Made by a program: the position numbers and the translations under genes. 26,444 nucleotides of DNA. Source: Mitosporidium daphniae (taxonomy: Eukaryota > Microsporidia). Positions 332 to 24,354 of this stretch are shown one piece after another. Positions within the stretch are counted from its first letter, which is position 1; every line of letters starts with the position of its first letter. The stretch covers positions 1 through 26,444 of the forward strand of contig NW_013546155.1 in the NCBI RefSeq assembly GCF_000760515.2. The letters are read 5' to 3'. The notes below the pieces were generated by a model. The model saw only the letters and a program-made list of their open reading frames with translations, was not told the origin of the DNA and did not search any database.

Positions 332-1514
332 TTATTTACATTTGCTGCCGTCATTGGCGCATTGCATCGACTGTAGGACGTTGTGGAAAAAGCGATAATC
401 ACTCATGATAAAAGTCGGATTTGTTATACCTTGTGGAATGTCCAATTGCTTCAATAAGTGCATGTACTTTGACGAAAGCAAGGGATCGATGTTCTGGCTC
501 GCCTCCAGCACAGTGTGATAAAGAAACGCAACAAACACGTTTAAATGGACCGATTCTTCCAACGTGGGAAAGTAATGAATAGGCGCTTCAAAGGAAAGCC
601 TGACAAAGCGCTCAGCTTCTTCCAAAAATTTGGGGATTATTTTTTCTAGCTTGTAAAGAGCATATGTTGATGGAACTTTTTGCTCCGTGGTTATGCCATT
701 ATGTGGTTGACGAAAGTAGGTTGGATTTAGAGCGGAAAACAATCCAAGCCAATTGTCATATGTGGCCATCAAACTGATAAATGAATTTAAAATCCTCCAA
801 GGCAAGGAAGCCTCAAGTTCGTGAACTTGAGCAAGTTTCTCAAGGGACCTCGACATAGAAACAAGGCCATTAACATTCCTCAAATCTAAGTAAAATTTAC
901 ATCATAAATACTAGAAAAGTATCGCACCAGCAAAAACGAATGGTTGATAATGGAATGTGGAATCGACTCGTCTAGTGCCAGTGAAAACCAGTCGAGCGAG
1001 TCTATGAGACCAAATTGATCAGACGAAATATATCTAGTCCATCTAGAATGATCAAATGACAAGTTCAAAAAGGATAATTTTTTGTCACTTAGCATATGTG
1101 AAATGGAAGTGGAATCCTAAAATTATAAAATTGACTAACCCTAAACGGAAATAAAGAGACCAACTCAATAAAAGATCCAAGAGGAATAGTACTTTGCAGT
1201 CTATGGAAGGATAAAAGCAAATATCCGGGCAGCTCGGAAGGTAAATGAATAAAAGCCATGTTTAAAAGTTTACACAGCCATTCAAGCTGAAGGTCGTCAG
1301 ACAAATAAAAAGTGCACGAAATGGCCTCAAAAAACTAGAAAAGAACCAACAAAACTACCTTTCTTTGCGTACAAAACTGGCCGATTTTTTGATCAAAAAC
1401 AACATCAAGGACATGTTGGCTTTTTGGAACATTGAACCTCGATTCAATAAAATAGGACAACTCATCAATAGGGATGTCATGATATGACTTTGAAGGAATA
1501 TCAAAATATTCCAT
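332..1514 (-). CDS. Unrecognised protein, four exons with 23-26 nt introns
   Basis: Four overlapping open frames join into one 369-residue protein when three tiny GT-AG introns are removed: 1335-1358 (24 nt), 1117-1139 (23 nt) and 886-911 (26 nt). Exons on the minus strand are 1514-1359, 1334-1140, 1116-912 and 885-332; their total is a multiple of three. I chose the ATG at 1514 (MEYFDIPSK), which lies only 26 bp from tRNA-Asp; the upstream TTG in the same frame is not needed. The product is predominantly helical and rich in Leu, Phe and Ser, with no signal peptide and no convincing membrane segment. I recognise no catalytic motif. A scaffold or complex subunit is possible, but no function is assigned. 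The intron 2 donor overlaps a TAACCCTAA box (read on +). Confidence 0.7.
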
Positions 1515-1540
1515 TAAAAAATATTGCAATCAACCAAAAA

Positions 1541-1612
1541 CTCTCCCTCGGGGAATCGAACCCCGGTCACCCGCGTGACAGGCGGATATACTAACCACTA
1601 TACTAAGGAAGA
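1541..1612 (-). tRNA. tRNA-Asp(GUC)
   Basis: On the minus strand the 72 nt fold as a cloverleaf. The acceptor TCTTCCT pairs with AGGGAGA (one G-T pair), the D arm begins TAGTATAGTGG, the anticodon loop is CTGTCAC giving anticodon GTC, and the T arm is CGGGG-TTCGATT-CCCCG. The discriminator base is G. There is no intron. The body closely follows the standard eukaryotic tRNA-Asp. The A box and B box (GGTTCGATTCC) serve as its internal Pol III promoter. Confidence 0.95.
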
Positions 1613-2538
1613 CATAGTTTCTGTTTTAAAAAGATATTTATTATAATTATTAACCTTTCACAGTTGGTTAGTATTTTTTCAATCAAACAGAGAATGATCC
1701 GGTATAGTGGACGAATCTTTCAAAGAAAACCAATATTAAGTTTTATAATTTAATTTCTCAAACTCATGAAAGTAGATTCAAAAAATATGCAAAGCATTGC
1801 TTCAAGGTCTGACATCGAAATCACAGATAAACTCATTAAGAATCTAAAAAGCTGATGTTTGATATTGGCCTCAATTATTTATTTTAATTGCAACGCATTA
1901 AGGCATCCCTCCAACAACTTGAAGAGGGCTTTTTTCGATCGTTTGAATCATTTCTAGGACCAGAAAAGGGCGATTTATCTCAAATATCCGACTTGAGCAG
2001 GCATCTGACTAACTGAAAGATAACATGCTTTAGCTGAAAATTAAAGAGGTCGATATGGTAGGAAGTTCTTTTGATCTTATTGCCGCCACTACTATCCGGG
2101 GTCAAAACCACCGTACTCATTTGGATAACGTCATTAACTTGCTTCAATATGATGATCCGTTTGAAAAGTTTCTTGTTCCCTTGCTGCCAGCTTGTATCTA
2201 GCCTGATTTTTCCCACACCCTCGAGTTCAATTTAGTTCTGATTCTGATCTATCCATGGCTCTTTACCTCTGACTTTGAACCGCAGTCAAATACCGGTACT
2301 GACTAGCCTGGGACCAAATACTCTATCTCCCATGATTACGTTTATTACGACATAAAGAATAGCAAGCCCAAAGTTTAATTCTAACCCTACATTGTGGGTT
2401 TCAGATATTTAATTTTCAAATTTATGTATTTAATTGACCAGTTTAGTAATTATCTAGCATCATGTTGCATTGGTGTGAAATTTATGGTACAAAAGGGTTT
2501 ATATGTCTCGCATGATTTTTAACCCATTTCATACTTAA
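1613..2538. other. Gene-poor interval with two weak open frames
   Basis: No gene here can be supported. Two protein-like fragments are visible. One is a plus-strand frame at 1888-2016 (42 codons, ending in SDLSRHLTN). The other is a minus-strand frame at 2216-1980 (78 codons starting with GTG, containing MSTVVLTPDSSGG). They are convergent, overlap by 37 bp, and neither has an in-frame ATG near its start nor a clean GT-AG intron leading to one. A TAACCCTA box lies at 2382-2389, about 150 bp before the next gene. Confidence 0.4.
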
Positions 2539-2985
2539 ATGGAGATCCAAACGATTTTATTTCCCATCCTTATGATTTTACTTCCCACTACTTTTGTGCA
2601 ATACACTACTGCAAATAACAACAAAAATAGTATATTTGACCTTCAATCTTGTGAAGTCGATCTTCATGACATTGATGATCTGGAAAACATTGTTAAAGAA
2701 GCTAGGAACAGCACGTTTCAAACTAATTTGGCAATTTCTTCGTTAAACTTCTTGATTGGAAATACAACTATAGAAATCCAAAAATACCTACCGAGCGTAA
2801 TTAACTTCGAGAAAAATCATCAAGTCGATGAATTAGAACACCTGAAATCCAAACACATGAAGCAGTTATGTTTATTAAATTTCTTGAAAAAGCTTGAAAA
2901 ATTTCCCTCCGAGCTAAAAGTACAACTCAAAAGCAAAATTTCTCTCGGACTCAACAACACCGCCAAAAAACCGCCAGCTTGGTAA
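2539..2985 (+). CDS. Putative small secreted protein, orphan
   Basis: A single-exon frame of 148 residues starting at ATG 2539. The first 25 residues look like a cleavable signal peptide: a short polar start, a hydrophobic core (ILFPILMILLPTTFV), then small residues near YTTA. The mature part is about 120 residues, helical and charged, with candidate N-glycosylation sequons (NST, NTT, NNT) and three cysteines. It ends KKPPAW. I do not recognise a family. In a parasite or endosymbiont it could be an exported or surface protein, but that is inference. The spacers around it are unusually long and AT-rich for this window, so it may be lineage-specific. Confidence 0.55.
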   Translation: MEIQTILFPILMILLPTTFVQYTTANNNKNSIFDLQSCEVDLHDIDDLENIVKEARNSTFQTNLAISSLNFLIGNTTIEIQKYLPSVINFEKNHQVDELEHLKSKHMKQLCLLNFLKKLEKFPSELKVQLKSKISLGLNNTAKKPPAW

Positions 2986-4489: not shown

Positions 4490-6297
4490 ATGACCAAAGA
4501 ATCCATCGCCACTCATGGTACACATCGTATCCTCTTTCCCAAGTTATATAATAACATATCAGAGATACCGACCGATAGATCCAATAACACATGCTATCCG
4601 TTGTCTTCGATTACAAAAAATGCATTGACTGAATCAAACATTCAGAGGGTGATGGGATCGATTGCTACCCATTACCTTGAAAATCCAGATGAGTCTAAAA
4701 AATGGAAGGTTCAAACAAATGTTGAAACATTGGCATTGTCCGCACCATCGCAGCCTTTAGGTTCGTCCTTTTCATCGCTAGGTTCTTGCTGCACCTCTGC
4801 TTCGCCCGTTGAAAATATAGTATCAATAGATCCACAATCTTATGTTGACCAGATTTTAGCCTCTAGCAAAGAAGCCGAAAATTCGCCTCTCCCTTTGCTG
4901 TATTTTTCTTCCTTACCTGAATCAATTACAAATCCAAAAAAAGCTACCACTAGTGGCCATGTTTTTGCCAATACTGATTTTAACGCCAATTTCGATACTT
5001 TGCTTTGCTCTGAAGCTGAAGGCAAAACGAACATCTTTTATTTATTGAATGAAAGCAAAAGAAAGCTCGGCATTGATTTGGATTTTCACAATAATTTCCC
5101 ATCTGAGCGAGATGTTGAAATTTTCCACACCTCCATTGCCAATGTTAAGCGGCAAAAGGTTGACTCGGAACCGTTGGGCAATTTATTTCTCAACAGCGAT
5201 GAAATTCAGCAAAAAATCAGAAACTTTTATGCGCCACCAAGCACCATTGACGATAGCAGAGCGAACCAACTTTGCCGACAAAAACTGCCGCATTTTTTAG
5301 AGCCAAAAAGAGATGTTTTTAAGCCTATGTTATGTTCCATTATTCTTGGCGACATTTTCATGGATGTCTGGTATAACTCTCCCTTTCCAGCCGAATATGT
5401 CAATGCACCAAAATCGGCATTATGGATCTGTCCTTGGTGTCTTAAATATTGTAGTCTTACCATTAATGCGCAAAGACATAAGCAAAAATGCCATCTGAAC
5501 CGCCCTCCTGGTAAGGAGATCCACCGTCAAGCAATTGATGATGGCAGCAGGCTTCTCATGCTTTTTGAGCTAGATGGCTCCAGGCATAAGCTTTATTGCC
5601 AAAACCTTTGTCTTCTTGCAAAATGCTTTTTAGACCATAAAATCTTATACTACGATGTTAATTCATTCTTGTTTTATGTTTTGGCAGAATATCAAACGGC
5701 CGATGATCGCCAGCATGGAGCGATGCGAATTGTAGGCTATTTTTCAAAGGAACGAAATGCAGATGTCCACAATAATGTCTCCTGCATAGTGATTTTCCCA
5801 GCATATCAGGGATTGCGCTACGGACAATATCTTATTGATTTTAGTAGGAAAATATATCTCTAAATTAGGTTATACTTTGACCAGAGCAGAGGGCCTCATA
5901 GGCGGGCCTGAAACTCCTTTATCAGATTTAGGCTTTTTGTCGTATTCAAAGTATTGGATGGAGGTATTAGTTTCAGAGCTTAAAGCCTACCTTCTATCAA
6001 AAAACGATCGGCCATTGTCGTGGACAAGTAATCTTTTGAACTTTATATTTAGATTTATCTAAAAAGACTGGAATCCACATAAACCACATCCTAACCACCC
6101 TTGAGTGGATGAACTGCCTGATGAAAGGCAGAGATGGGAAAATCTCTGTTGATGCAGATAGGCTGTTGAAATATCCGGATTCTTTGCAGGGGAAAACTAG
6201 GCCGAAGGATGAATTTCTGAGATGGAAAATTAAAAAAGTTAAAAAGTGTCACCTGTGGGATTTGAACCCACGCCCAATTACTCGGATAGCATCTTGA
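4490..6297 (+). CDS. MYST-family histone acetyltransferase, three exons
   Basis: Exons 4490-5843, 5869-6027 and 6053-6297, with 25-nt introns at 5844-5868 and 6028-6052, give 585 residues. The first ~280 residues are Ser/Asn-rich with no chromodomain or PHD finger seen. The MYST domain follows: a C2HC zinc finger (CPWC...HKQKC, from about residue 314), PPGKEIHRQ, YCQNLCLLAKCFLDHK, the catalytic Cys at about 432 (NNVSCIVIFP), the acetyl-CoA loop YQGLRYGQYLIDFS, and the base Glu in GGPE before PLSDLGFLSY. Splicing restores FSYTLTRAEG and the C-terminal helix LSKKTGIHINHILTTL, both expected in the family. The acetyl-CoA loop is unusual: family members read QRxGYG, here QGLRYG. The stop lies inside the antisense tRNA-Leu gene. 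The enzyme would acetylate histone tails; which MYST subclass (Esa1-, Sas2- or Sas3-like) is unclear. Confidence 0.9.
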
Positions 6298-6330
6298 GTG
6301 CCACGTCTTAGACCGCTCGACCAAAGTGAC
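6246..6330 (-). tRNA. tRNA-Leu(CAA)
   Basis: On the minus strand 85 nt fold as a class II tRNA. The acceptor GTCACTT pairs with AGGTGAC, the discriminator is A, and the D region is TGGTCGAGCGGTCTAAG. The anticodon stem TGGCA/TGCTA encloses loop CTCAAGA (anticodon CAA). There is a long variable arm and a T arm GTGGG-TTCAAAT-CCCAC. No intron is present, unlike the CAA leucine tRNAs of budding yeast. Its 3' two-thirds overlap, antisense, the last codons of the MYST acetyltransferase gene. Confidence 0.95.
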
Positions 6331-6407: not shown

Positions 6408-6811
6408 ATGCCTATTCCAAGAGTAAGCTCTCAAATTGTTGCCTCATGGATTAAAACACCGACTTTGAAAACAAAGCCACTGATTATAGACGTTAGAGAT
6501 TGTGATTACACAGTAAATTACGTGATTTATTTTAGGATGTAAAAATACGATCGTCCTTTAACTTTCCATACGCCTCTTTTCAGAAGGATGGACTTCGAGA
6601 GCTGATGGCCCTCGTTAAGCAATCTGCGCCCGAAAAGGTTGTTTTCCACTGTCATCTAAGTCTTCAACGTGCAGTTTCTGCTTCTGAAATGTTTGCAAAG
6701 GAAATCGAGTCTGATCCATCGATAGACTGTGAAGTTTCCATATTGGATGGAGGCATCTGCGAATGGAAGGCCTTGTATGCCTCCGATCCAATGCTTACCG
6801 TAAAACTTTAG
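6408..6811 (+). CDS. Rhodanese/Cdc25-like small phosphatase (Ych1/Ibp1 type)
   Basis: Exons 6408-6512 and 6536-6811 flank a 23-nt intron (6513-6535) and give 126 residues, close to the ~140-150 of Ych1/Ibp1 proteins. A single rhodanese domain is visible: LIIDVRDCDY, FNFPYASF, the active-site loop FHCHLSLQRAVSA with the CX5R signature (Cys and Arg present), and LDGGICEWK near the end. A seven-residue phosphatase-type loop indicates a Cdc25-like phosphatase or arsenate reductase rather than a sulfurtransferase, whose loop is usually six residues. The usual GGHIxGS segment after DVRDxDY is replaced by DVKIRSS, exactly at the exon junction. The substrate is unknown. Confidence 0.85.
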
Positions 6812-6913: not shown

Positions 6914-9613
6914 ATGTCGTTTATTGCCTTTAAGCCTGAAAATGCGTTGAAAAGAGTGGAAGAACTTATCCTTGTCGGCCAGTCGTCGCTTGCATTTCAG
7001 AATTTACATGACTTGATTATGTCCAAGCGCCTCAGATATAACCAAGTAAATTACGAAAACATCATGCTTCGGTATATAACACTTGCGGTGAACATGAAAA
7101 AAGGAAAAAATGCAAAAGAGGCGCTCACGCAATATAGAAACCAGACTCTGTTCTCTAACCTTAGCTCCTTCGAGCAGGTGATGCTGAAGTTTGTGGAGAG
7201 CGCTGAAAGCAAAGTACCTTGTGATCTCCATGTTGCATCCGAGGTAGAGGATTTTGATTCTTCAGATACGCCTGAATCGGCTATTGAAAGAATTCTAAAC
7301 GGTGAAGATGAAGCAGACTCTGGATTCGTCAACACACCAGATTCTGAAGATTCGTCCACTACAGCAATTCGCTTTCTTTGGGAAGCATATAGAATTTCTT
7401 TAGACATTGTGCGAAATAATACAAAGCTTGAAGTGTTTTACCGCTTTGTAGCGACCAAAGCATTTGAATTCTGCGGAAAGTATGGCAGGAAATCCGAATT
7501 TCGTCGTCTTTGTGACGTTTTGAGAAACCACCTGTCTCAAATCATAAAGACCATTCCATCGAGCATGTCACACAGTGGGATATCTCTTCTAAACCAGGAG
7601 AGCATGATTATGCAAATGCAGATCCGGTTTACGCAGTTGAATACGGCGATTCATCTCGAGGTTTGGCCGGAGGCATTCAAATCAATCGAAGATATTTACG
7701 AGCTTCTGTGCATCAACAAGAAAGGCATTGTGGACCATCAACTGATGATCAATTACTATGAGGCATTGACGAAAATCTTTCGTGTGTCAGGAAATTCTCT
7801 GTTTCTTGCAGCCGCTTGGAATAAATATCTGTCATTTGTTGGCTCGCAATCGGAAACGGTCCCACAGGCAAAACTGCAGGAATTGACCACCTGCACGCTC
7901 CTATCCGCACTTTCGGTTCCCATTCATATCTCCTCGAATTCGCCGTTTAAGGACCTTCTCAACGAGTCGGCAATGGACTACCAGGAATCTCAGTTATCTA
8001 GAGATTCAAAAATAACGGCCATGATGGGGCTCTCGAAAATCCCTACCAGGGATCAACTGATCTCCGAGGCCTCATCCTTGCACTACTGGAACCATGTGGA
8101 TACAGATGTTAAGGTCTTATACGAGATTTTATCTGCTTCTTCGGAAACGGAGTCTCCGTTTGCGATCAGCGAAAAGCTACTAGCCACTTTATCTCGGCTC
8201 AACTCGAAAAAGGTTTATGTTCAGTTTATGCCGATTGTCCAAAAGACAATATTTTCGTCCCTTTTTGAGAAAATCATCACCAGTTTGCCGCAAATTTCTT
8301 TCGATGATCTTTTGACGATCTCATCAAATATTTTCCTCTCCAAAATCTCTCTCTTTGATTTGGAGATTGCAGTTTTGCAAGAGGCTCAGCACTATTCTCA
8401 ATCTTTCAAAATATTAATTGACGATCTCACTCGCACCTTTTACATCAGGCCCGTCTTTGATATCGACTCGATTTTGGCACCAGTTTTTGAGCCCATTAAA
8501 GTGGACCTTTCGGACGCCGCTTTGGCCTCTCCGCTTGACGAAAATTCTGTGCCGGAAAGCAACAATTTAGGGTCGATTGAAGCCCAAATTTCGTCAATTC
8601 TGCCGTTAAGATCCGCGGCGTTTACTCCAGAGTCTATCTCAAACCTGAGCAAGATGCTTCGTGAAATTAGCCTTGCCCTTCAGCATGAGCAATATTTGAT
8701 CCAGCTTAATAAGGAAATCATTGCTCAAAATAAACAGACTTCAGAGGCCGTGTCCAAAGCAAAGGAGCTGAAAGAAGCAGCTGAGCTTGCCGAAAAGGCT
8801 AGTGTAGAACAGGAGTTATTCCGTGCCCAAAGAGCCGAACTATTAGAAGCGCATGAGCAGGAGCGAAAAAAAAACGAGCTTCTTGAAATTCAACTGCTGG
8901 AAAAGAGGAAGCTTATCGACCAAGTGGTTCAGAAAATTTCTGGCTACGGCAAGACTATTGATCCAAACACACTTTTATCGATGTCTCGCGAGGAGATCCT
9001 TAGGGTGCAAGCAGAATTGCTGGCTGAAGGAAAAAGAGAGGTGGAGAAAAAGGTATCCGCCATTGCCAAAAGAATGGACCATTTTGAGCGCGCTCTGCGC
9101 CAAGAGGAGCGACCCATTCTCACCAAAGATTATGAGGCCCAACGCATCCTCGATCAAGAGAGTCATGTAATTCTTAATGAAAAAAAGCGCGCTTTGGCAG
9201 CTGCTAAACATGCCCTTCAGATGGCCACAATCAAAAGTGCCGTTCTGCGTCAAGAAGAGGCCTCTTCCTATTTTGAGGCATTAAAACATGCACGTACGGC
9301 AGCAATTAGCGATGTTGCCGAAAAAATGGCCAAGGATCTTTCTTTAGCCAAGGAGGAGCGTATTGCAAAGGCCACCGCAGCTTTGCTTCAGAAAAAGGCA
9401 GATGAAGAGTATATTTCCAAAAAGCGGGCCCAGGAGGCAGAGGCCGCTGCTCGCTTACAAAAGCAGCAAGAGATGCAGCGGGCGCGAGAGGCTGAAATTG
9501 AAGCCAAGCTTGAAAAGCAGCGATCCTCGATCGGCAGTGCATCAAGCCCCTCTTCAATCCCAACCCCAGCCCGTGCATCAACCACCGGTTACAAGAAGAA
9601 GCATTATTATTAA
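6914..9613 (+). CDS. EIF3A: Eukaryotic translation initiation factor 3 subunit A
   Basis: A single exon of 899 residues. The N-terminus (FKPENALKRVEELILVGQ, then LHDLIMSKR) is the hallmark start of eIF3a/Tif32. Helical repeats and a PCI domain fill roughly residues 1-520. From about 580 to 880 there is a long, highly charged coiled coil (Glu/Lys/Arg/Ala-rich, repeated EAAELAEKA-like stretches), the spectrin-like region that contacts eIF3b and the 40S subunit. The C-terminus is a short Ser/Pro tail ending KKKHYY. Yeast Tif32 is ~960 residues and the human protein ~1380, so this is compact but complete. It scaffolds eIF3 on the 40S ribosome. The ATG at 6914 directly precedes the conserved start and follows a 102-bp spacer. 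Confidence 0.95.
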   Translation: MSFIAFKPENALKRVEELILVGQSSLAFQNLHDLIMSKRLRYNQVNYENIMLRYITLAVNMKKGKNAKEALTQYRNQTLFSNLSSFEQVMLKFVESAESKVPCDLHVASEVEDFDSSDTPESAIERILNGEDEADSGFVNTPDSEDSSTTAIRFLWEAYRISLDIVRNNTKLEVFYRFVATKAFEFCGKYGRKSEFRRLCDVLRNHLSQIIKTIPSSMSHSGISLLNQESMIMQMQIRFTQLNTAIHLEVWPEAFKSIEDIYELLCINKKGIVDHQLMINYYEALTKIFRVSGNSLFLAAAWNKYLSFVGSQSETVPQAKLQELTTCTLLSALSVPIHISSNSPFKDLLNESAMDYQESQLSRDSKITAMMGLSKIPTRDQLISEASSLHYWNHVDTDVKVLYEILSASSETESPFAISEKLLATLSRLNSKKVYVQFMPIVQKTIFSSLFEKIITSLPQISFDDLLTISSNIFLSKISLFDLEIAVLQEAQHYSQSFKILIDDLTRTFYIRPVFDIDSILAPVFEPIKVDLSDAALASPLDENSVPESNNLGSIEAQISSILPLRSAAFTPESISNLSKMLREISLALQHEQYLIQLNKEIIAQNKQTSEAVSKAKELKEAAELAEKASVEQELFRAQRAELLEAHEQERKKNELLEIQLLEKRKLIDQVVQKISGYGKTIDPNTLLSMSREEILRVQAELLAEGKREVEKKVSAIAKRMDHFERALRQEERPILTKDYEAQRILDQESHVILNEKKRALAAAKHALQMATIKSAVLRQEEASSYFEALKHARTAAISDVAEKMAKDLSLAKEERIAKATAALLQKKADEEYISKKRAQEAEAAARLQKQQEMQRAREAEIEAKLEKQRSSIGSASSPSSIPTPARASTTGYKKKHYY

Positions 9614-10111: not shown

Positions 10112-10187
10112 TTTAAAATCGCATTTGCATTTCAATTGTTTTGAGTAAAATTTATTTCAAATTTTTAAACCGTAAATTTCAGTTTTC
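10112..10187. promoter_or_regulatory. Short divergent promoter between CHCHD2-like and eIF2-beta genes
   Basis: Only 76 bp separate the two start codons, so both promoters and 5' leaders must lie here. The spacer is AT-rich and holds repeated AAATTT cores (TAAAATTTA, CAAATTTTTAAA, GTAAATTTCAG). Similar AAATTT motifs recur upstream of other genes in this window. Confidence 0.5.
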
Positions 10188-14082: not shown

Positions 14083-15185
14083 ATGATTGCCACTGACGAG
14101 AGCGCGCCACGATCCCGATTTGCGCGCGTGACAAATCGGCTGCTTGTCCGCAGCACCATAGTTCAGCAGAAAACATGGGCTTACAGACCGTATCTTTCGT
14201 TTCGTCTTTTCTTGCTATTGACTTTTGGTGCTGCAGCATCGCTGCTCATACCTGCTATTTTGCTCTGGATAGAACAGTCTATGGTACTACTTTGTAGTAA
14301 TTTCAGGTTTTCGAGGCAGAGCTTCGGTATACAGGATGCGGGAGCAGCTCTGAGGCTCCGGCTCCCGGAACATCACGATGCCCGACATGCAAGCTGCAGT
14401 TGCCGCTGCCGCAGGACCACCGCCGCCTCTTTCTTTATTATCGGCTAACAAACTACTACCAAAGCTCGGTACAATACGTCACCAGTATTGATCGCTCCCA
14501 GCTTCAAGGCGCTGCCCTGGGTGTCTCCGATCTTGGTGACTGCAGCCCAATAATCAAGGAAGGTAGCGTTCCATTTTATCCTTGCGGACTGATTTCGGAC
14601 TCGCGCTTCAATGACACATTTGCTGCCGATGGTCTCCCGACTGGGGTCTCTTTCACTCAAAGTGGTATTGCCTGGCCATCGGATGTAGATGCGCTCTACA
14701 GAGCCACGGCATATGGAGCAAATGCTACCCTCCCACCGCCCTCCTGGGCTCAGGCTCAAGGTAATTTATGGCCGCCATCGCCAGATTGGATCACTGGCGA
14801 TGAGCATCTGATGAATTGGATGCGTGTCTCTGCATTTCCAACTTTTCTCAAGCTTTATGGGATCATCAACGGACTTGGTGGGGATAACAGTAACCCATCC
14901 GAATTGACGCTTCTCGTTTCAGACTGCTTCCCGATTGGTAGCGCTTTTGGCGGTACAAAATCGATTTTCATCTCGTCGCAGTCGTTTTTTATCGGCGGAA
15001 AGATTTTGGCATTACCTATAATTTTTACCGCTTCTGGGACGGTTCTTCTTCTGACAGCCCTCATTATTCTGCTGCTTCATAAAAAGCGAAATCGCATGGC
15101 GACCGAGTTCGATGCATACCCCGGGGCCGCCGCAGAAACGGAAATGTTTCAAATGCTCCAGCGCATGCAAGAAGAGTCGATGTAA
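14083..15185 (+). CDS. CDC50/LEM3-family P4-ATPase (flippase) subunit
   Basis: Exons 14083-14283 and 14307-15185 around a 23-nt intron (14284-14306) give 359 residues. Splicing converts a frame ending in stops into SMVFEAELRYTGCG, joining the first membrane helix to the luminal domain. Family features in order: a cytoplasmic N-terminus with QQKTWAYRP (compare QxLxAWxP), a membrane helix (~38-62), luminal YYRLTNYYQSSVQYVTS with DRSQLQG, CGLISDSRFNDTF, paired cysteines, then a C-terminal helix (ALPIIFTASGTVLLLTALII) followed by HKKR. CDC50 proteins chaperone P4-ATPases out of the ER and are needed for aminophospholipid flipping. The luminal region has a Gly/Ser/Pro insertion near GSSSEAPAPGTS. 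The gene converges with the ABC transporter gene (91-bp spacer). Confidence 0.92.
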
Positions 15186-15243: not shown

Positions 15244-15276
15244 GGCTGGAGAGTTGTTATCTATACGCCTTGTCAG

Positions 15277-18200
15277 TCAGGCCTCGCCTGGATCTCCGCC
15301 GAGTAAAGCGGCAACATGCTGATACTCGGCTTGGCCAAGTTCCCTGACGAGCTGGGTGAAAAGAGAGTCTGGATTTTTAAACAGCGAGCGAGGCGTGTCC
15401 AGTTCCGCAATGAACCCATCTTGCAGCACCATGATCCGATCGTAATCCAGGATGGAGAGCAGCCGATGTGCAATTGTGATCACGGTAACAGGATGCTCAA
15501 TGATATCAAATGGAGAAAGGTTAGGGTTCGATTGGTCTATGCGTGCCAAAGTTGGAACCGAAACACGGCGGATGGTCTCCTGGATGAGCGTATCGAGAGC
15601 CTTGTCAACATTGGAGGTTGCCTCATCCAGCACCAAAATGCGCGAGTTTTTAAGTAGTGCCCGGGTAAGGCAAAGTAACTGAGACTGTCCCTGCGATAGC
15701 ATTGCCGAGCCCTCTCTGAGTATGGTGTCCAGACTGGGTGGCACCAGTGTTGCTCGCAAATGAGGACCAATGGCACATGCCTCTAGCATCGCCCATATCC
15801 GTTCATCGGAATAGCAGTTTAGTGGATCGAGATTGAAACGCAAGGTGCGTCCATAGAAGATCACCGGATCTTGGGGAATAATGGCTAAGCGTTGGCGAAT
15901 CATGGAGCCTGGAATGCACGAGATGTCAACGTTATCAATCTTAATACAGCCTTCCGAAACCGGTATTAGTCCAAAGAGGGCCTGCACTAGTGTACTTTTT
16001 CCAGACCCTGTGCGGCCGATGATGGCCAGGCGTTCGCCAGGCCTCACTTCAAAGTTAATGTCACAAAGCACAGGACGTCCGCCGTCCGGAAGATATGAGA
16101 GCGTGACATTTGAAAACTCAACGGCGCCTTCATATGGCCAGTGATCATTTTGAAACAGCGGGGATGAATGTGGCTGAACGGCATTTTTATGAAGGACAAA
16201 TGAAGTGGCCCCGAAGGATAAACCTGGGGGCAAGGTGGTTGGAAGTGGATATGATGGCATCTCTTTGACGGAAGCTCTAGATTCATCCCCAAGCTCATAG
16301 AGACGTCTGAAACTGCACAGGGCGATTTCGAGATCGGCAAATGAAACTATAGAAGTGTATAATGACTTGGCCAGCATCATCAATTGATGTATGACAAGAC
16401 CGGCTAGGGCGGGTGAAATACCTTCATATACACAGAAAAACGTCGTTGCAGCCACGCTTAAATTTGCTACAAGCTCAAAGCGGAGTGACGCCCACGACCT
16501 CAACGAGGCCAAAAGAAGCGTCGGCGCAACTAGCCAGTCACTTGCAGCAAAATTTTTCTCCATGAAAAGCTCCTGTACGGATGGCAAACCCATATTGAGC
16601 GGCATAATTACTTTTGGACACATCAAGGCTTGTATGTCTAGTTGATTGTCCTTGCTTGGGAAACTTCGGGAACGGATGAGCGGGAGACCGCCCAAAGTAT
16701 CTCGAACCTGCCCCAAATATGCTGAACGGGCATGCGAGCACAGGCGCTCCAAGTCCAGCATTGGTCGGTGGTAGAGACGCAAAAGCGTCCAGTTAGCCAG
16801 CAACAAAAAGACAGGCAGAAAAAACGCCATCCATGGAGACATGGTAAATGCCACCAATACCAGAACAGAAAACACAGCGCAAGCCTTTCCTAAAAGATCA
16901 CGCCCCGCATCGAGGATGTCAAAATCTGAACATTCAGTATCTTTGGTAAGCCGGTTCATCAAAAACCCGAATGGGAATTTGTCGATGAACGCGAGAGGAG
17001 TCATCATAAGAATGCCTGAAAAAGCGTCGCGGTATGTGGAACGAGCCGCATTCCAAGCACCTACTGACACCAAAAGGGTAAAGAAAGCTGTTGAAGTGAC
17101 AAAGGCAAATGCCATCGCCCAGATCATCCATCTATCCTTAAGACTGCTTTCGCCAATCTGAGCAAGCATTCTCTCTGTGGAAATTCTGGAGAAATTTACC
17201 AGCACTAAGAAGAAAAGGGTCAATACAAATAGAACCCATCCAAAACGATCGAGAAAGCGTACATAAATTGACAGGGGAAGTGAACTAATAGAGGGAATTT
17301 TCTCTTCGTCAAATTCACTTTTATCTTCTTTTAGGGGGAAACGGTGCCCTTTTCGTGGGCCTTCTTCAAAGGTTTCAAGCTCTCGGAGCTCATCAGCAAA
17401 AATGGACTCCGTTTCTTGGATTGGGGCCTCCATGAAGGGTTCTTTAGGTGTTTCCGGGTCTTGCGGCCGGCAAGTAATCGACTCAAGAGAGTGGATTGTT
17501 TTCATCGAGCTGATTGCGAATGATGTATGCGGGCAATCGGTTGAAATTCTTGCTGTATTTCCCGCTTGAGGCTGCTGGATATTTTCGTTGGCCAAAAGTA
17601 AAGGAATTCTATTGGGCATCCTCTCTGCATGAGAAGCGAACCATTCTTCTGGCGGACCCTGCCACTTGATGCGCCCTTTATCCATGCAGACGATCCAGTC
17701 ACAGCTATCCGGCCTAATTAGGTGAAGCGCATGCGTAGAAATTATCTTTGTCTTCCCATTATTAAGCGTGGAGCTCTTAACAATGGCATTTTCCCAGACA
17801 ATTTTGGCCACTTTAGCGTCCAGTGCAGAGACGGGATCATCCAGTAGCAAGATCTCTGCATTTGAATATAGAGCCCTTGCAAGTGAAATCCTTTGCCGCT
17901 GACCGCCAGAAAGGGCAGATGTGGCCCCTCCAATCTCAACCAGGTCTCCCAATGGAAAGCTTTTAATGTCTTCGCGAAGCTGGCAAGCTGATAGGATGGC
18001 CCCGTAACGAGAGGAGTTGAATTTACACCCAAAAAGAATATTTTCTCTCAGAGAGCCATGGCTAATCCAGGGTTGCTGCGGAGAATATCCGAAAGTATTG
18101 CGGTCCATCAGTGATGGAGATATGTGAAGGCTTCCGCTGACAATGTTAATTTCGCCCAAAATAGCCTGAAGAAGAGATGATTTTCCAGAGCCAACAGGCC

Positions 18201-19728
18201 CAATCAGGATGACCGTGGCGCCAGTTGGAATTGAAAGTGTAATATCCCTCAACGAGGAGAGCGATTTCATAATTTTAGTGGAAATAAAAGGCTTTGAAGA
18301 CTCTTCATTTTTGACGCCACTCCAAGATGCCCAAAAATCTTTCAGCTCAATGGCTGTATCCATCTCTATTGGACCCATTGATGATGGGTGAAGCTCCTCC
18401 GAGCGTAGAAGCTCGGAGATTCGTTTTAAAGAAATTTTAGCATCAATCAGCCTGCTTAAAAACGGCGGAAATGTGCCCATCGCTGACCGAAGCTGACTAA
18501 ACATCGAAATAGCGGCGAAAATGGTTGATGTCGATAGCGTTGAAGCTGTCGGTGCGAGAAAAAGTGCCATTGCAAAAGCAACCAAAGATGCCATGATTGG
18601 CGTCGCATTCATGAGTGTAGTCAGCATGGCAATCAGTGAGTGTAGTGCCAGTTGTTCCGAAAGTTCTTTTGCGCGAAGGTCGTCTGCATATTTGCAGAAG
18701 GCATCCTCCCAGTCGTTAAGGACAACGACGCGGATACCTGTCAGCATCTGATCGACGAACCTGACTCTGCAATCAGTGGCGGAGATTGCTTGGATTCTCT
18801 TCTTTGCAAGCCGCTGGACAATTAAATATTGGATAGGAACACTGCCGATCATCATGGCAAGTCCGGCACCAGCCGCTGGACCCAGTATCCAAAACAAAAG
18901 CCCAGAAATGATGAGTATTTGAAGCGGACCTAACCAAGCCACATGAATATGATCAACAGCAACATCAATTCGACTGACATCGCTAGTGATGAGGGTGAAT
19001 ATCCGCCCATTGGTATGGGAAGATCTGGTATGTGGGGCAAGCCGGAAAATCTTGCGATAAATTGCTGCGCTAAGCGCAGCTTGCACAGAAGTTCCGGTGT
19101 ACCTCAATATTTCTGCCGAGCGTTTGCTCGAATACGAGCTGAAAGAGGAAAGGATGAAAATAGAAACGCCCAAAGCATAAGCCAAATGGCGAGAATCGAT
19201 GGAAAAAGCCAAAACTACAAATTGAGTATTTCCGCTGAGCGCATTTAAAAAGTAAAAAAGCAGCAATGGAATAATTAACAAAGAAACTTCTGAGATGGCT
19301 TTGAAAATGCCACTGAAAACCAAATCTCGGTACACCATTTTACCGAGACAAATGAAAATATATTTAGCCGAAATAACCGAATCGTCTTGAAAGCCTTTTG
19401 TAGGCATAGTTTCACCTAAAGGGACTTTCACCGGCTGAAATCGGGACTTTTGGAGCCTCAACCAGGAATCTTTCGAAGTAAATGGATGAGGAATGTCCCC
19501 TATGTCGGATTCCAAAAGATTGCGGTTAATTTTGCTCAGAGGAAGCACCGCCTTTTCCTTTTTGTTGCGCAGGGCCTGTTTTTTGTACAGCCTCCTTCTA
19601 TCTAGACTGATGACCAGCAGAGGTTTTAGCCAGGAGTAATGGAATTGAGACCATAGACTTGCATTCTTCCTCTGGACCAAAGGTCCCCGCAAGGCCTCCG
19701 ATTTGTCTTTGGGAAAATCTTTTGCCAT
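15277..19728 (-). CDS. ABCC/MRP-type full ABC transporter (no TMD0)
   Basis: A single exon of 1483 residues with TMD-NBD-TMD-NBD order. The N-terminus has the ABCC lasso-like segment (NASLWSQFHYSWLKPLL) but no extra TMD0 helices, so it resembles MRP4-type or short MRPs. NBD1: Walker A GPVGSGKSS (~508), signature LSGGQRQR (~605), Walker B ILLLDDPVSALD. The Asp in place of the catalytic Glu is normal for the degenerate ABCC NBD1 site. An acidic linker follows. NBD2: Walker A GRTGSGKST (~1237), signature LSQGQSQ (~1341; most ABCCs have LSxGQRQ), Walker B LVLDEATSNVD with the Glu, and H-loop TIAHRL (~1417). About 20 extra residues sit between Walker B and the H-loop. It should export conjugated organic anions or drugs across the plasma or vacuolar membrane; the substrate is unknown. 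Confidence 0.95.
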   Translation of the reverse strand: MAKDFPKDKSEALRGPLVQRKNASLWSQFHYSWLKPLLVISLDRRRLYKKQALRNKKEKAVLPLSKINRNLLESDIGDIPHPFTSKDSWLRLQKSRFQPVKVPLGETMPTKGFQDDSVISAKYIFICLGKMVYRDLVFSGIFKAISEVSLLIIPLLLFYFLNALSGNTQFVVLAFSIDSRHLAYALGVSIFILSSFSSYSSKRSAEILRYTGTSVQAALSAAIYRKIFRLAPHTRSSHTNGRIFTLITSDVSRIDVAVDHIHVAWLGPLQILIISGLLFWILGPAAGAGLAMMIGSVPIQYLIVQRLAKKRIQAISATDCRVRFVDQMLTGIRVVVLNDWEDAFCKYADDLRAKELSEQLALHSLIAMLTTLMNATPIMASLVAFAMALFLAPTASTLSTSTIFAAISMFSQLRSAMGTFPPFLSRLIDAKISLKRISELLRSEELHPSSMGPIEMDTAIELKDFWASWSGVKNEESSKPFISTKIMKSLSSLRDITLSIPTGATVILIGPVGSGKSSLLQAILGEINIVSGSLHISPSLMDRNTFGYSPQQPWISHGSLRENILFGCKFNSSRYGAILSACQLREDIKSFPLGDLVEIGGATSALSGGQRQRISLARALYSNAEILLLDDPVSALDAKVAKIVWENAIVKSSTLNNGKTKIISTHALHLIRPDSCDWIVCMDKGRIKWQGPPEEWFASHAERMPNRIPLLLANENIQQPQAGNTARISTDCPHTSFAISSMKTIHSLESITCRPQDPETPKEPFMEAPIQETESIFADELRELETFEEGPRKGHRFPLKEDKSEFDEEKIPSISSLPLSIYVRFLDRFGWVLFVLTLFFLVLVNFSRISTERMLAQIGESSLKDRWMIWAMAFAFVTSTAFFTLLVSVGAWNAARSTYRDAFSGILMMTPLAFIDKFPFGFLMNRLTKDTECSDFDILDAGRDLLGKACAVFSVLVLVAFTMSPWMAFFLPVFLLLANWTLLRLYHRPMLDLERLCSHARSAYLGQVRDTLGGLPLIRSRSFPSKDNQLDIQALMCPKVIMPLNMGLPSVQELFMEKNFAASDWLVAPTLLLASLRSWASLRFELVANLSVAATTFFCVYEGISPALAGLVIHQLMMLAKSLYTSIVSFADLEIALCSFRRLYELGDESRASVKEMPSYPLPTTLPPGLSFGATSFVLHKNAVQPHSSPLFQNDHWPYEGAVEFSNVTLSYLPDGGRPVLCDINFEVRPGERLAIIGRTGSGKSTLVQALFGLIPVSEGCIKIDNVDISCIPGSMIRQRLAIIPQDPVIFYGRTLRFNLDPLNCYSDERIWAMLEACAIGPHLRATLVPPSLDTILREGSAMLSQGQSQLLCLTRALLKNSRILVLDEATSNVDKALDTLIQETIRRVSVPTLARIDQSNPNLSPFDIIEHPVTVITIAHRLLSILDYDRIMVLQDGFIAELDTPRSLFKNPDSLFTQLVRELGQAEYQHVAALLGGDPGEA

Positions 19729-19836: not shown

Positions 19837-20390
19837 TTAGTCAGATGAACGATTAAGGGCAATTTTTCTTTGAAGCTCTCCAATGATAACTGTAAAATTT
19901 ACAAAAATATTAATACCCGAGTGCATGTCTTGCTTGGCAGACAAATTCTGGATGATCGAATTTAGCTGTTCTTGTAAAAAGGACTCCTTGCGTTTATAAA
20001 ACTCTTTGGCTGAAGAGATGGACTAAAGCTGGGAGGATACAGCAAAAAATACCTTTTCGACATAATAGCCGGCACCAATATCTACGGTGGCCCTGCTGAT
20101 GTCGGAAAGGTTTCCAGGGACATAAACAGAGCTGGAAAGTGGGACAAGGATTTCCCCGCCCTGTGCTTCCGAACCAAGCTCATCCAAGCTCTGTCTGCAG
20201 GAGGCAAATCTATCAAGGGCGATTTTTAGACTATCATACGAGGCTTGAAATAGATCCACTTCCTAAAATGAGAGGCAGAAAAAACCTTTTCCAGTTGCTC
20301 CCGAAGCTGGTTAAGCTGTGCTGGTAATAGCTGAGATATCGAAACCGGGGAAGCTGATCCAGGCGGACCAGAAACCTTGGGGGATGACAT
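19837..20390 (-). CDS. PFD5: Prefoldin subunit 5 (alpha-type), four exons
   Basis: Minus-strand exons 20390-20286, 20262-20053, 20022-19917 and 19889-19837, with introns of 23 nt (20263-20285), 30 nt (20023-20052) and 27 nt (19890-19916), give 157 residues (human PFD5 is 154). The order fits alpha-prefoldin: N-terminal helix (LLPAQLNQLREQLEKE), central strands LVPLSSSVYVPGNLSD and VDIGAGYYVEK, then C-terminal helix (FYKRKESFLQEQLNSI, KQDMHSVIIGELQRKI). Removing the 27-nt intron makes the last helix the same length as in human PFD5, although that intron has no stop and keeps frame. The ATG at 20390 (MSSPKV) is the first in frame. Prefoldin hands nascent actin and tubulin to the CCT chaperonin; a beta-tubulin gene lies nearby. 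Confidence 0.92.
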
Positions 20391-20499
20391 AAACTTTGTA
20401 AAATAGTTTCCCGAATCATTAAACTTGAGTGCCAATTAAATTTTGCCTCAAATCCAACCGAACCGAGCCAGAGTAAACCAAAACGAAACGAAAAGGGAT

Positions 20500-20942
20500 T
20501 TATTTATCACAGGTAATCATGGCCTGAATACGGGGAATGGCTTTTGCAAGAGCATTAAATTGATCGAGGCTCAAGGAAATACCTAACATTGAAGATATGC
20601 CAATACCCTTCCTTCCTGGCTTGGTCTCTCCAAGAGAGTCTGAGTAGTATTCACGGATATCTACTTGAGGCTTTCCCTTCCAGGAGCGCAGGGAGATCCG
20701 TCTTTGTGGGGAGATCTTAAATAAACGAATACTGTTACTTCGACATAAAAAGAGCCATCTTCGTCCTTTTTTACCTAAAAGGGAAATAGAATTGAAAATA
20801 CCATTTCGTCTGCACAATTCAGTTTATTAGAAGAAGTGACGATGTTTTGGGGACAATCCTCTTGGATATCTTTTTCCGCTGCCTGGACATGCTTTTCGGC
20901 GGCTTGGACTTGTGTATCCCCAGACGGGCAATGTCGCTTCAT
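20500..20942 (-). CDS. SUB1: Transcriptional coactivator PC4/Sub1, four exons
   Basis: Minus-strand exons 20942-20802, 20774-20739, 20715-20607 and 20582-20500, with introns of 27 nt (20775-20801), 23 nt (20716-20738) and 24 nt (20583-20606), give 122 residues. Exon 2 encodes only 12 residues. The spliced C-terminal half reads KKDEDGSFYVE-ISPQRRISLRSWKGK, then VDIREYY, KPGRKGISLSLDQFNAL and IPRIQAMI. This is the single-stranded-DNA-binding PC4 domain. The N-terminus is short, with an imperfect repeat (VQAAEKHVQAAEK-like) instead of a long Ser-rich region. PC4 helps assemble Pol II initiation complexes and binds ssDNA. The 24-nt intron keeps frame and has no stop, but its removal is needed for the family sequence GRKGISL. 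An AATAAA overlaps the region just after the stop. Confidence 0.93.
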
Positions 20943-20987: not shown

Positions 20988-21391
20988 ATGGGTCCGTGTG
21001 AACCTACTGGCACAATCGGACCCAATTCAACGCTTTCCCAGCACGCAAATTTTGTTGCAAACTCGCTCCATCGATTCGCAGTTCTGACAGAGAAATATTT
21101 GGACGTCTTAACCTCACCCACTCCCCCCAATCATGACGGCGATACCGAGTTCAAGGTGATTCTTGAAGAATTGGTTTCCTTGGACCAAAGCATTTCAGAA
21201 AAAATCGACGAGCGTAAGGATAACCTCATATCTAATGGGTAGTCAATTCCTTCCTGGCAACCAATGACCGGATTTCTGCAATCTCATTCGACCTGGATCT
21301 GATTTCCTCAAAAATCCTATCAATCGAGTCCTTTGTGTTTGAAATGGAAGAGGAGTTTCAAAAGACATTATTTGTCGATGTAGGCAGGTGA
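20988..21391 (+). CDS. Small helical protein, two exons; BLOC-1/BORC-like or Mediator-like subunit (uncertain)
   Basis: Exons 20988-21213 and 21243-21391 around a 29-nt intron (21214-21242, strong GTAAGG donor) give 124 residues. Without splicing the frame stops at 21240. The product starts MGPCEPTGTIGPNST. It then forms two or three amphipathic helices: HRFAVLTEKYLDVLT, EFKVILEELVSLDQSISEKI, and DRISAISFDLDLISSKILSI followed by an acidic end. No catalytic motif or membrane segment is present. The I--I-DLD-I--KI--IE spacing is reminiscent of KxDL/BLOC-1 subunits, but small Mediator or kinetochore subunits look similar. No function is assigned. Confidence 0.65.
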
Positions 21392-21834: not shown

Positions 21835-23202
21835 ATGCGCGAAATTGTTCATATCCAAACCGGCCAGTGCGGAAATCAAATTGGCGCCAAATTTTGGGAA
21901 GTGATCTCCGACGAACACGGAATTGACCCCTCTGGCGCATATGTTGGGGACTCTCCAATCCAGCTAGACAGAATCGATGTGTATTATAATGAAGCCAATG
22001 GCAAAAAGTATGTTCCGCGAGCGGTGCTTGTTGACCTTGAGCCAGGGACAATGGATTCTGTCCGTGCTGGTCCTCTTGGACGGCTCTTTCGGCCCGATAA
22101 TTTTGTGTTCGGACAAAGCGGAGCGGGAAACAACTGGGCTAAGGGGCATTACACCGAAGGTGCCGAGCTCGTTGACTCGGTTTTGGATGTTGTGAGAAAA
22201 GAAGCCGAGTCTTGCGATTGTCTGCAAGGGTTCCAAATCACACATTCCATTGGAGGCGGAACCGGCTCTGGTCTTGGAACCCTTCTTATCTCCAAAATCA
22301 GAGAGGAATTTCCAGACCGAATGATGTGCACCTTTTCTGTCGTTCCCTCACCAAAGGTACGTTGACTGATGATTAATTTTTTGGTGTCCGATGCGATTGT
22401 TGAGCCATACAATGCCACTCTTTCGGTCCATCAGCTTGTCGAAAACTCGGACGAAACTTTCTGCATCGATAACGAGGCTTTGTATGATATTTGCACCAGA
22501 ACCCTCAAATTGAATACCCCCTCCTACGGCGATTTGAATCATTTGGTCTCGGTGGTGATGTCTGGCGTTACCACTTGTCTGCGATTTCCAGGGCAGCTCA
22601 ATGCAGACTTGAGGAAGTTGGCCGTTAATATGATACCATTCCCACGTCTGCACTTCTTCATGGTTGGCTTTGCCCCGCTTACTGCCAGGGGCGCAATGCA
22701 ATATCGTGCCTCTTCTGTTTCAGAACTGACGCAGCAGATGTTTGAATCGAAAAACATGATGGCTGCTTCTGATCCGCGTCACGGCCGATATTTGGCCGTC
22801 GCCGCAATGTTCCGAGGCCGTGTGTCGATGAAGGAAGTAGACGACCATATGTTCAATATCCAAAATAAGAACTCCTCTTATTTCGTTGAATGGATCCCAA
22901 ATAATGTCAAGACGGCCGTTTGTGATGTGCCGCCCAGAGGCCTAAAAATGTCGGTAACGTTCATCGGAAATTCTACCGCCATTCAGGAGCTTTTCAAACG
23001 CATTTCTGAGCAGTTTACAGCCATGTTCCGTCGCAAGGCATTTGTTCACTGGTACACCAGTGAGGGCATGGATGAAATGGAGTTTACTGAAGCAGAGTCC
23101 AATATGAATGACCTTGTCTCCGAGTATCAGCAATATCAAGATGCCACTGCTGATGATGACATGCTAGGGTATCAGGAAGGTCAGATGGAGGAGGCTGATT
23201 AG
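21835..23202 (+). CDS. Beta-tubulin, two exons
   Basis: Exons 21835-22356 and 22384-23202 give 446 residues. The N-terminus is [17 protein letters not shown], including the MREI element that governs tubulin mRNA autoregulation in animals. The GTP-binding motif GGGTGSG is at about 140-146, followed by [36 protein letters not shown], and an acidic tail ending GQMEEAD without the usual terminal Tyr/Phe. A 27-nt insert (22357-22383) after Lys174 carries an in-frame TGA. It has a good donor (GTACGT) and a pyrimidine-rich end but finishes TTTTTTG rather than AG. Removing exactly these bases restores the invariant PKVSD. No other sign of decay is seen, so this is probably a functional gene with an atypical intron, unless a base is missing from the sequence. 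Confidence 0.95.
22357..22383 (+). other. Beta-tubulin intron with apparent non-AG acceptor
   Basis: 27 nt beginning GTACGTTGAC and ending TTAATTTTTTG, between codons for Lys174 and Val175. Conservation of beta-tubulin across the junction fixes its extent to within a GGT direct repeat, and none of the equivalent cut points gives a 3' AG. The other 20 introns deduced in this window end in AG. Confidence 0.75.
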
Positions 23203-23234
23203 CCCAAATTGTGTCTCAACTATCATGATTGTCT

Positions 23235-23240
23235 AATAAA
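23235..23240 (+). promoter_or_regulatory. Poly(A) signal of beta-tubulin
   Basis: AATAAA begins about 33 bp after the stop codon. Confidence 0.6.
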
Positions 23241-23331
23241 TATTCAAAATTGCCCCGTTAAAGAGGGTCCACTTTAACTGCAAAATTATCAAAATGCCCT
23301 TTTACGGATTTTTTTCTTCTTTCGCAGTTTA

Positions 23332-24354
23332 ATGTCATTGGTACCAAAACGCTCTCGCTTGTTGAGTGCGGTTGTTAAGGCTTTTTCTAAAATCTCGCCC
23401 CTCTCTCTTGCCGAGAATGACTGGGATAATGTCGGTGTTCTGATCGAGTGTCACGAGAAATGGAATATCAGACCATTGGACGTCACAGCCGCTCAAAAAT
23501 CGACAATTCTTTTGACCATCGATTTGAATCACGAAATTATTGATGAGGCTCTGCACCATCAATCCAGTGGTACGCATCCGGTTGTCATTGTTGCCTACCA
23601 TCCAACAATTTTCAAGCCCATCAAGAAACTGACTCTCGATTCCCTTGAAGGCGGATATTCGCACATCAACGAGCTCGTTGTCCGTTGCATACAATCCGGG
23701 CTTTCAGTATTTTCCCCACACACGGCGCTTGACAATTGCCACGCAGGGAGTACAATTTGGTCCTTATTTTATAGTTAATGACTGGATTTGTTCGTTGATT
23801 GGCAACGGGACTTTTGCTCCAATAATTCCGAATCCATCACCACAGGCAACCGTGCAGGGTGACATAGTTGGATCTGGCCGATATTTGACGCTAGCTGAGC
23901 CGAGTCCTCTTGAAGAGATTGCAGACCGTCTTATGAAGGGGTTTGCAACAACATATGGTGAGATTTGCACCAACTAAGGTCAATTAGCTCGGATTGCAAA
24001 GAGCGCCAAATATTCTTGCCAACAAAAGCCGATTTCGAAGCTCGCTGTTTGTGCTGGATCCGGTTTGTTTGTAGCAAATAACCCTGCATAGGCGGGTCTA
24101 TTCTTCTTTCACCAAAGCTCAACAGCGATACCGAGCTTCTCATAACTGGGGAGATGAGCCATCACGACGTTTTAGCTGCAACTGCCAAGGGATACAATGT
24201 AATGCTTTTTGAGCACACGCATACAGAAAGGGGCTATTTATCGCAAATGCTGAAGCCTAAACTTGAAAGTGCATTGAGCGAGGAAGTTGATATTCAAATT
24301 TTCGTGTCAAAATATGACAGGGATCCAATCCAACTTTATAAAATTAAAAATTAG
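23332..24354 (+). CDS. NIF3: NIF3-family (NIF3L1/DUF34) metal-binding protein, four exons
   Basis: Exons 23332-23749, 23775-23957, 23988-24062 and 24092-24354, with introns of 25 nt (23750-23774), 30 nt (23958-23987) and 29 nt (24063-24091), give 312 residues. Splicing restores the family blocks HAGINDWICSL and AVCAGSGGSILL. Metal-site regions are visible: WDNVGVL, VAYHPTIFKP (the eukaryotic YHP form), FSPHTALD, LLITGEMSHHD and EHTHTERGYL, including the late His and Glu ligands. Intron 2 could instead end at 23978 (21 nt), adding Gly-Gln-Leu and keeping frame. I prefer 30 nt because every other intron is 23 nt or longer. NIF3 proteins are conserved in all domains, with proposed GTP cyclohydrolase-like or metal-chaperone roles; the exact function is unsettled. 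Confidence 0.92.

Follow-up and report, generated by a model that had tools for sequence, protein, structure and literature searches.

Very short predicted introns in Mitosporidium daphniae and the spliceosome that probably removes them

Mitosporidium daphniae, a parasite of water fleas, is a microsporidian that branched off early and has retained mitochondria; it is known in the literature as a mitochondrion-bearing microsporidium (PMC12449221), and the NCBI taxonomy lists it in Microsporidia incertae sedis. The stretch analyzed here, called the window in the following, comprises 26,444 nucleotides (nt) of its genome (assembly GCF_000760515.2, contig NW_013546155.1, positions 1 to 26,444 of the forward strand). 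Eleven window genes hold 19 introns of 23-30 nt, of which 18 are bounded by GT and AG and one by GT and TG, and judged by sequence and homology these segments are real introns. An earlier note on this DNA had counted 21 introns in 11 genes, with a list of lengths that sums to 22 rather than 21. The number of genes was confirmed, but only 19 introns could be placed when each was located by script at its exact string position in the window. They are distributed as follows.

1335 to 1358, minus strand: intron 1 of a gene of unknown family (1514 to 332), 24 nt; restores the frame and removes an in-frame stop; 33 nt (1326 to 1358) and shorter forms also keep the frame.
1117 to 1139, minus strand: intron 2 of the same gene, 23 nt; restores the frame, no alternative within 18 nt.
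886 to 911, minus strand: intron 3 of the same gene, 26 nt; restores the frame, no alternative within 18 nt.
5844 to 5868, plus strand: intron 1 of a MYST histone acetyltransferase gene (4490 to about 6250), 25 nt; join at residue 451 within MOZ_SAS (339-529), alignment to KAT8 continuous.
6028 to 6052, plus strand: intron 2 of the MYST gene, 25 nt; join at residue 504 within MOZ_SAS, likewise aligned to KAT8.
6513 to 6535, plus strand: intron of a rhodanese/CDC25-like gene (6408 to 6811), 23 nt; join at residue 35 within Rhodanese (15-114, 28.9 bits).
10431 to 10454, plus strand: intron of an eIF2-beta-like gene (10188 to 10922), 24 nt; restores the frame and removes an in-frame stop; join at residue 81, outside the Pfam domain (100-209).
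13319 to 13346, plus strand: intron 1 of a coiled-coil gene with a Cnn_1N motif (11219 to 13895), 28 nt; restores the frame.
13611 to 13634, plus strand: intron 2 of the coiled-coil gene, 24 nt (forms of 30 and 33 nt keep the frame too); restores the frame and removes an in-frame stop.
14284 to 14306, plus strand: intron of a CDC50/LEM3 gene (14083 to 15185), 23 nt (32 or 38 nt also keep the frame); the CDC50 match (62-330) starts five residues before the join at 67.
20263 to 20285, minus strand: intron 1 of a prefoldin subunit 5 gene (20390 to 19840), 23 nt; alignment to a solved prefoldin subunit 5 (14-141) crosses the join at residue 35.
20023 to 20052, minus strand: intron 2 of the prefoldin gene, 30 nt; alignment continuous over the join at residue 105.
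20775 to 20801, minus strand: intron 1 of a PC4/Sub1 gene (20942 to 20500), 27 nt; restores the frame and removes an in-frame stop, upstream of the PC4 domain.
20716 to 20738, minus strand: intron 2 of the PC4/Sub1 gene, 23 nt (forms of 17 and 29 nt keep the frame too); the PC4 match (59-117) starts right at the join, residue 59.
21214 to 21242, plus strand: intron of a Med4-like gene (20988 to about 21390), 29 nt; join at residue 75 within a Med4 match (58-120) of 21.4 bits, below the cut-off of 26.9.
22357 to 22383, plus strand: intron of a beta-tubulin gene (21835 to 23202), 27 nt, GT..TG; alignment to a solved beta-tubulin continuous over PSPK/VSDA.
23750 to 23774, plus strand: intron 1 of a NIF3/DUF34 gene (23332 to 24354), 25 nt; join at residue 139 within NIF3 (12-304), continuous in fungal homologues.
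23958 to 23987, plus strand: intron 2 of the NIF3 gene, 30 nt (21 nt also keeps the frame); join at residue 200 within the NIF3 match.
24063 to 24091, plus strand: intron 3 of the NIF3 gene, 29 nt; joins CAGSGGS as in most homologues compared.

The lengths are thus 23 nt (five introns), 24 (three), 25 (three), 26 (one), 27 (two), 28 (one), 29 (two) and 30 nt (two), so that the range given before stood, with one 23-nt and two 24-nt introns fewer than claimed; that nearly all introns are of the GT...AG type was borne out as well. After splicing the frame is open in all 11 intron-bearing genes. Without splicing a stop follows within 19 codons of the first join in ten of them, and in the CDC50 gene 54 codons after the join. 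Nine of the 19 joins lie inside alignments to Pfam domains or solved structures with at least 10 residues on either side (two in MYST, one in rhodanese, two in prefoldin, one in tubulin and three in NIF3), and besides these nine and the Med4 and CDC50 joins the eight other introns are supported by the reading frame. The spliced MYST protein reaches 213.5 bits against MOZ_SAS, compared with 138.3 bits for its first open exon alone, and the spliced proteins score 188 bits for CDC50, 88.9 for Prefoldin, 68.6 for PC4, 219.1 for Tubulin and 161.4 for NIF3. A 30-nt form of the CDC50 intron (14277 to 14306), proposed by an early gene finder with another start codon, was rejected, as it does not keep the CDC50 frame. 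For the gene at 1514 to 332 a Pfam search of the spliced protein gave no family or homologue. Between 1740 and 2200 there are, by eye, short open frames that resemble pieces of one gene, without cleanly fitting GT-AG joins; this is possibly the place where further introns had been counted before.

The splice signals approximate AAG/GTATGT at the 5' end and TTTAG/G at the 3' end, with low information except at the GT, at position three and at the final three bases. The introns are AT-rich, with a G+C content of 0.31 in the window and 0.36 in the wider sample described below. An A is present between -9 and -6 in 16 of the 19 window introns, while the TTAA/CTAA-like segment that had been said to precede the 3' end occurs in only five of them. 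For the intron at 1335 to 1358, the 33-nt form, whose end is shifted 9 nt later, would supply an A.

The wider sample consists of 322,790 bases in 32 loci including the window, about 7% of the assembly (4,662,434 bases in 147 contigs); it contains 29 stretches of 10 kilobases (kb) and three shorter loci, one overlapping locus having been dropped, and was taken non-randomly, by contig order plus one contig. A gene finder using codon bias only was dropped, since its coding signal of about 0.04 nats per base was too weak, and for this reason the splice motifs were learnt and a motif-free control was run separately. The control covered the 296,346 bases outside the window, with coding statistics trained on open frames only, junction lengths of 12-120 nt weighted equally and 64 dinucleotide pairs tried as intron ends. 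In the class of 23-32 nt it returned 21 GT-AG junctions versus a mean of 3.4 (standard deviation 2.0) over the 63 other pairs; GT-AG was first of all 64, with CA-AG as the highest control pair (11 junctions), and the excess has a Poisson P of about 1e-10 against the control mean and 0.005 against the highest control. In the same control GT-AG did not clearly exceed the other pairs at 12-22 nt (6 junctions), 33-60 nt (13) and above 60 nt (16). The excess in the short class outside the window shows that the short introns are more than a chance pattern.

The gene finder with learnt motifs, whose splice matrices were seeded from 18 window introns and relearnt under a flat prior of 12-200 nt, gave 113 strict predictions, of which 3 measure 12-22 nt, 83 measure 23-35 nt, 8 measure 36-60 nt and 19 measure 61-200 nt; the lengths have a floor at 22-23 nt. 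The short size class is therefore narrow and general in the sample and not local to the window. The wording "uniformly minimal" of the earlier note is true of the window only, as the wider sample has a sparse tail of longer introns. Part of this tail consists of wrong joins, with at least one finder error in the class of 61-200 nt: a 143-nt "intron" in a dynamin gene was resolved by hand into introns of 36 and 32 nt flanking a 75-nt exon that reads SPIFLKICSSSVPNLSLVDLPGITK. A third intron of 24 nt guessed at first in the dynamin gene proved wrong.

Ten of the 63 intron-bearing predictions outside the window, picked non-randomly and mostly for several short introns, were checked, and all ten belong to known families (UGP1, ribosomal L1, dynamin, actin-related, DnaJ/TPR, RPN7, HEAT-repeat, kinesin, lipase and E2F). 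In these genes 22 of 36 introns of up to 40 nt lie within Pfam matches with at least 10 residues on each side, by a hand count that leaves out TPR and HEAT repeat matches. UGP1 has seven introns. Six were predicted (25, 26, 26, 28, 24 and 37 nt), and the finder missed a seventh of 27 nt, which has no in-frame stop and appears as an insertion of nine residues relative to a solved UGP1 structure. That it was missed means that stop-free introns with a length divisible by three are undercounted. The lengths display no clear deficit of multiples of three (28 of 89), in predictions of a finder that is biased against stop-free introns of this kind. About 196 kb of predicted coding sequence contain altogether 202 predicted introns no longer than 60 nt, 98 of them strict, corresponding to 0.5-1 per kb.

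From sequence and homology it is very probable that the window segments are U2-type spliceosomal introns which are removed by a canonical major spliceosome. Several findings weigh against this reading. Ten of the 19 introns have another frame-keeping GT-AG pair within 18 nt of each end, so that single intron lengths may shift; most ambiguous are NIF3 intron 2 (30 or 21 nt), PC4 intron 2 (23, 17 or 29 nt), the CDC50 intron (23, 32 or 38 nt) and intron 1 of the 1514-332 gene (24 or 33 nt, among others), while homology speaks for the boundaries given above in MYST, prefoldin and NIF3 intron 3. Only a weak signal marks the branch point, with A at -8 in a fraction of 0.44 and at -7 in 0.36, and the 24-nt form at 1335 to 1358 has no A at all between +7 and -3. 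The beta-tubulin intron ends in TG. Longer introns exist too: an 84-nt intron in the kinesin gene looks real, as by hand it contains an in-frame stop and the kinesin match runs eight residues beyond it. Among the 29 predicted introns of 22-40 nt with a length divisible by three, 18 contain an in-frame stop and 11 do not, so that these 11 are supported by coding score and motif. Of the splicing factors, SF1-HH had no match in the assembly search, which was itself uninformative, and the U2AF large subunit had only matches below the cut-off. Finally, short introns can be poorly spliced in other microsporidia (PMC3749934).

This last point leads to a different explanation, namely that the segments are introns by descent but are poorly spliced, as in some core microsporidia, so that much of the messenger RNA would be non-functional or regulated. 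Of eight introns matched by motif in Spraguea lophii, six were reported as unspliced, and the short introns of the E. cuniculi orthologues as spliced in less than 15% of transcripts (PMC3749934). In M. daphniae, however, the introns sit in core genes such as beta-tubulin, UGP1, RPN7 and NIF3, with up to seven per gene, their retention yields a stop in all 11 window genes, and many joins are internal and away from the start codon, which makes poor splicing very unlikely here.

The TG end of the beta-tubulin intron (22357 to 22383) has no frame-keeping GT-AG pair within 18 nt of the intron ends that could replace it. TG 3' splice sites were reported in human genes (PMC2374985), and a one-base assembly error and a genuine TG site are equally possible; if constitutively used, this GT..TG intron would be a real non-AG 3' splice site. 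That a one-base error could explain the TG also fits the assumption that the segments in general are assembly errors, pseudogenes, or stretches removed by translational bypassing or DNA-level excision instead of splicing. Against this assumption, GT-AG ranks first of 64 pairs in the length class, the pattern recurs in ten further predicted genes, and an open frame of a relative (P0349) reads unrelated residues at the places of the NIF3 introns, so that such non-splicing causes are extremely improbable. P0349 agrees with NIF3 in the stretch from intron 1 to intron 2 and again downstream of intron 3, with no in-frame match between introns 2 and 3, a pattern that would be expected from intron read-through at the same NIF3 positions in the relative, although this is suggestive only. 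Among the best 120 of 4616 matches to the spliced NIF3 protein none exceeds 49% identity, which means that the exact M. daphniae protein is not among them.

The canonical U2-type reading also draws on the spliceosomal machinery, and the window itself contains a spliceosomal RNA gene. This gene and three uninterrupted genes used for comparison are located as follows.

6914 to 9613, plus strand: eIF3a, uninterrupted (PF22591, 358 bits).
15277 to 19728, minus strand: ABC transporter of 1483 codons, uninterrupted (ABC_tran and ABC_membrane).
24420 to 24525, plus strand: U6 spliceosomal RNA gene, full length with intact ACAGAGA (RF00026, 90.8 bits).
24673 to 26442, minus strand: 2-oxoglutarate dehydrogenase E1, uninterrupted as far as the window reaches (E1_dh, Transket_pyr and OxoGdeHyase_C).

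U6 follows directly after NIF3, and U1, U2, U4 and U5 are encoded elsewhere in the assembly, all above the Rfam cut-off. U1 starts with the ACTTACC motif, U2 contains GTAGTA, and the pairing sequence of U6 is standard. The Pfam families of Prp8, U1-70K, Prp18 and Slu7 were matched above the cut-off, whereby the expected loss of Prp18 and Slu7 was rejected. The Prp8 protein, encoded on another contig of the assembly (C59), agrees with DI09_1p450 of M. daphniae at 100% identity over 2419 residues. The U1-70K locus takes 276 nt for 83 profile positions, a surplus of 27 nt, with one in-frame TAG, and from its sequence the gene looks interrupted by a 27-nt intron. Minor small nuclear RNAs (snRNAs) did not appear in an Rfam scan of the window, no genome-wide search for them being made. 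The Prp18 domain occurs at three places with equal score and frame length (C56:50046-50384, C80:2158-2496 and C118:10369-10707); this stretch may be repeated in the genome or may have been assembled three times.

The earlier note had suggested a spliceosome tuned to ultra-short introns by intron definition. A specially adapted spliceosome with lost or altered factors would fit the narrow length distribution and its hard floor, and Stentor, with introns of 15-16 nt, was reported without Slu7 or Prp18 being found (PMC9505925). Such an adaptation is nevertheless unlikely in M. daphniae, where U1, U2 and U6 pairing is standard, Prp18 and Slu7 are present in what is a partial factor inventory, and some introns of 36-84 nt are apparently tolerated. 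Among the snRNAs and core proteins searched, again a partial inventory, there was no sign of a reduced or altered spliceosome. Tuning to ultra-short introns is thus not borne out, whereas intron definition is plausible at such lengths as an inference.

For removal by the canonical major spliceosome the following arrangement can be assumed. The A-enriched positions -7 and -8 are likely the branch region, and an A there would act as branch point, which in the shortest introns would place the branch A at a distance of about 15 nt from the 5' splice site. This spacing, rather than a special machine, may set the floor at 22-23 nt; deletion bias or selection for compactness could have driven most introns to that floor, and each intron would be recognized as a single unit.

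The 2-oxoglutarate dehydrogenase E1 gene is consistent with a working mitochondrion, and together with the description of the species (PMC12449221) it supports the view that the genome is that of a mitochondriate organism. Some further features were seen beside the genes. A minus-strand transfer RNA gene, tRNA-Leu(CAA) at 6246 to 6330, overlaps with the last part of the MYST frame, which is open to 6297. A minus-strand frame at 9665 to 10156 ends with a twin-cysteine pattern that, reading the translation by eye, resembles CHCH mitochondrial proteins. Boxes of the type AACCCTAA/TTAGGGTT occur in the window at 308, 1137, 11148, 13997 and 15521 and 38 times in the wider sample, in 33 cases outside predicted exons, which cover 61% of the sample. 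For a newer, 10-contig assembly of M. daphniae the telomeric repeat TTAGGG was reported on one contig (PMC12449221), and it is possible that the boxes are an interstitial promoter element.

Microsporidia are cited as the fungal group in which nearly all introns were lost. In a survey of 644 fungal genomes the mean for 15 microsporidia is 0.01 introns per kb, with 0.22 for the ancestral state and 2.53 for Rozella (PMC8476143), and the word Mitosporidium is absent from the main text of that paper. With 0.5-1 predicted introns per kb in M. daphniae, the ancestral figure would go up and the events would fall into sequence, with shrinkage first and loss later. In this scenario the ancestor shared by M. 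daphniae and the core microsporidia had about one intron per kb, nearly all already at a floor of 23-35 nt, and its canonical spliceosome was complete; introns and then factors were lost later in the core group. We give this scenario, which includes a constitutive GT..TG intron in beta-tubulin, an even chance of being right. On the practical side, gene models for M. daphniae need a splice model that allows introns of 23-35 nt. Introns of this size may escape standard read aligners, as TopHat was reported to be unable to detect those of E. cuniculi (PMC3629993). In the literature searched, which excludes the genome paper of the species (10.1073/pnas.1410442111) and Whelan 2019, no description of such M. 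daphniae introns came up.

The short size itself is no record, and the new element is the dense set in a microsporidian. Core microsporidia including E. cuniculi belong to the same phylum and likewise have very short GT-AG introns. By the intron search motif for T. hominis (PMC3486916) their branch point lies near the 3' end, as the likely one of M. daphniae would. They have few introns with strict motifs: E. cuniculi has 37 of 22-76 nt with fairly strict 5' and branch motifs (PMC3629993), and microsporidian introns are often found in ribosomal protein genes (PMC3749934, PMC3486916). M. daphniae departs from this pattern of few introns, ribosomal protein genes and strict motifs, as its introns lie in many gene types at 0.5-1 predicted per kb with degenerate motifs.

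The view that 23-30 nt is close to the lower limit for spliceosomal introns is not supported, since shorter introns are reported for heterotrich ciliates (15-16 nt), mikrocytids (16-17 nt) and chlorarachniophyte nucleomorphs (18-21 nt; PMC10245619). Mikrocytids are intracellular parasites with short introns as well; theirs, however, are almost all 16 nt long and conserved in sequence, and their spliceosome is reduced, with U2, U4 and U6 found (PMC10245619), whereas the introns of M. daphniae mostly measure 23-35 nt above a floor of 22-23 nt, carry little information beyond their ends, and are accompanied by all five snRNAs. Stentor shares the canonical U1 and U2 pairing motifs and has its branch A at position 10 of 15 (PMC9505925), but its introns are shorter and nearly fixed in length, and of Slu7 and Prp18, which were not found there, M. 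daphniae has both. Chlorarachniophyte nucleomorphs are similar in their compact genome and narrow intron size class; their introns are shorter and narrower in range, and the nucleomorph is a relict plastid-associated nucleus and not the main genome of the organism. Among the ciliates Paramecium and Nyctotherus belong to an unrelated lineage and resemble M. daphniae in intron length and in the spread over many genes. Paramecium has mitochondria. As its introns are of about 25 base pairs (PMC5014332), short introns in a mitochondriate genome, a dense set of which the earlier note had called notable, are not new. For Paramecium and Nyctotherus only ultra-short introns of this size are reported (PMC5014332), whereas M. 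daphniae combines a narrow class near 25 nt in many genes with a tail of longer introns.

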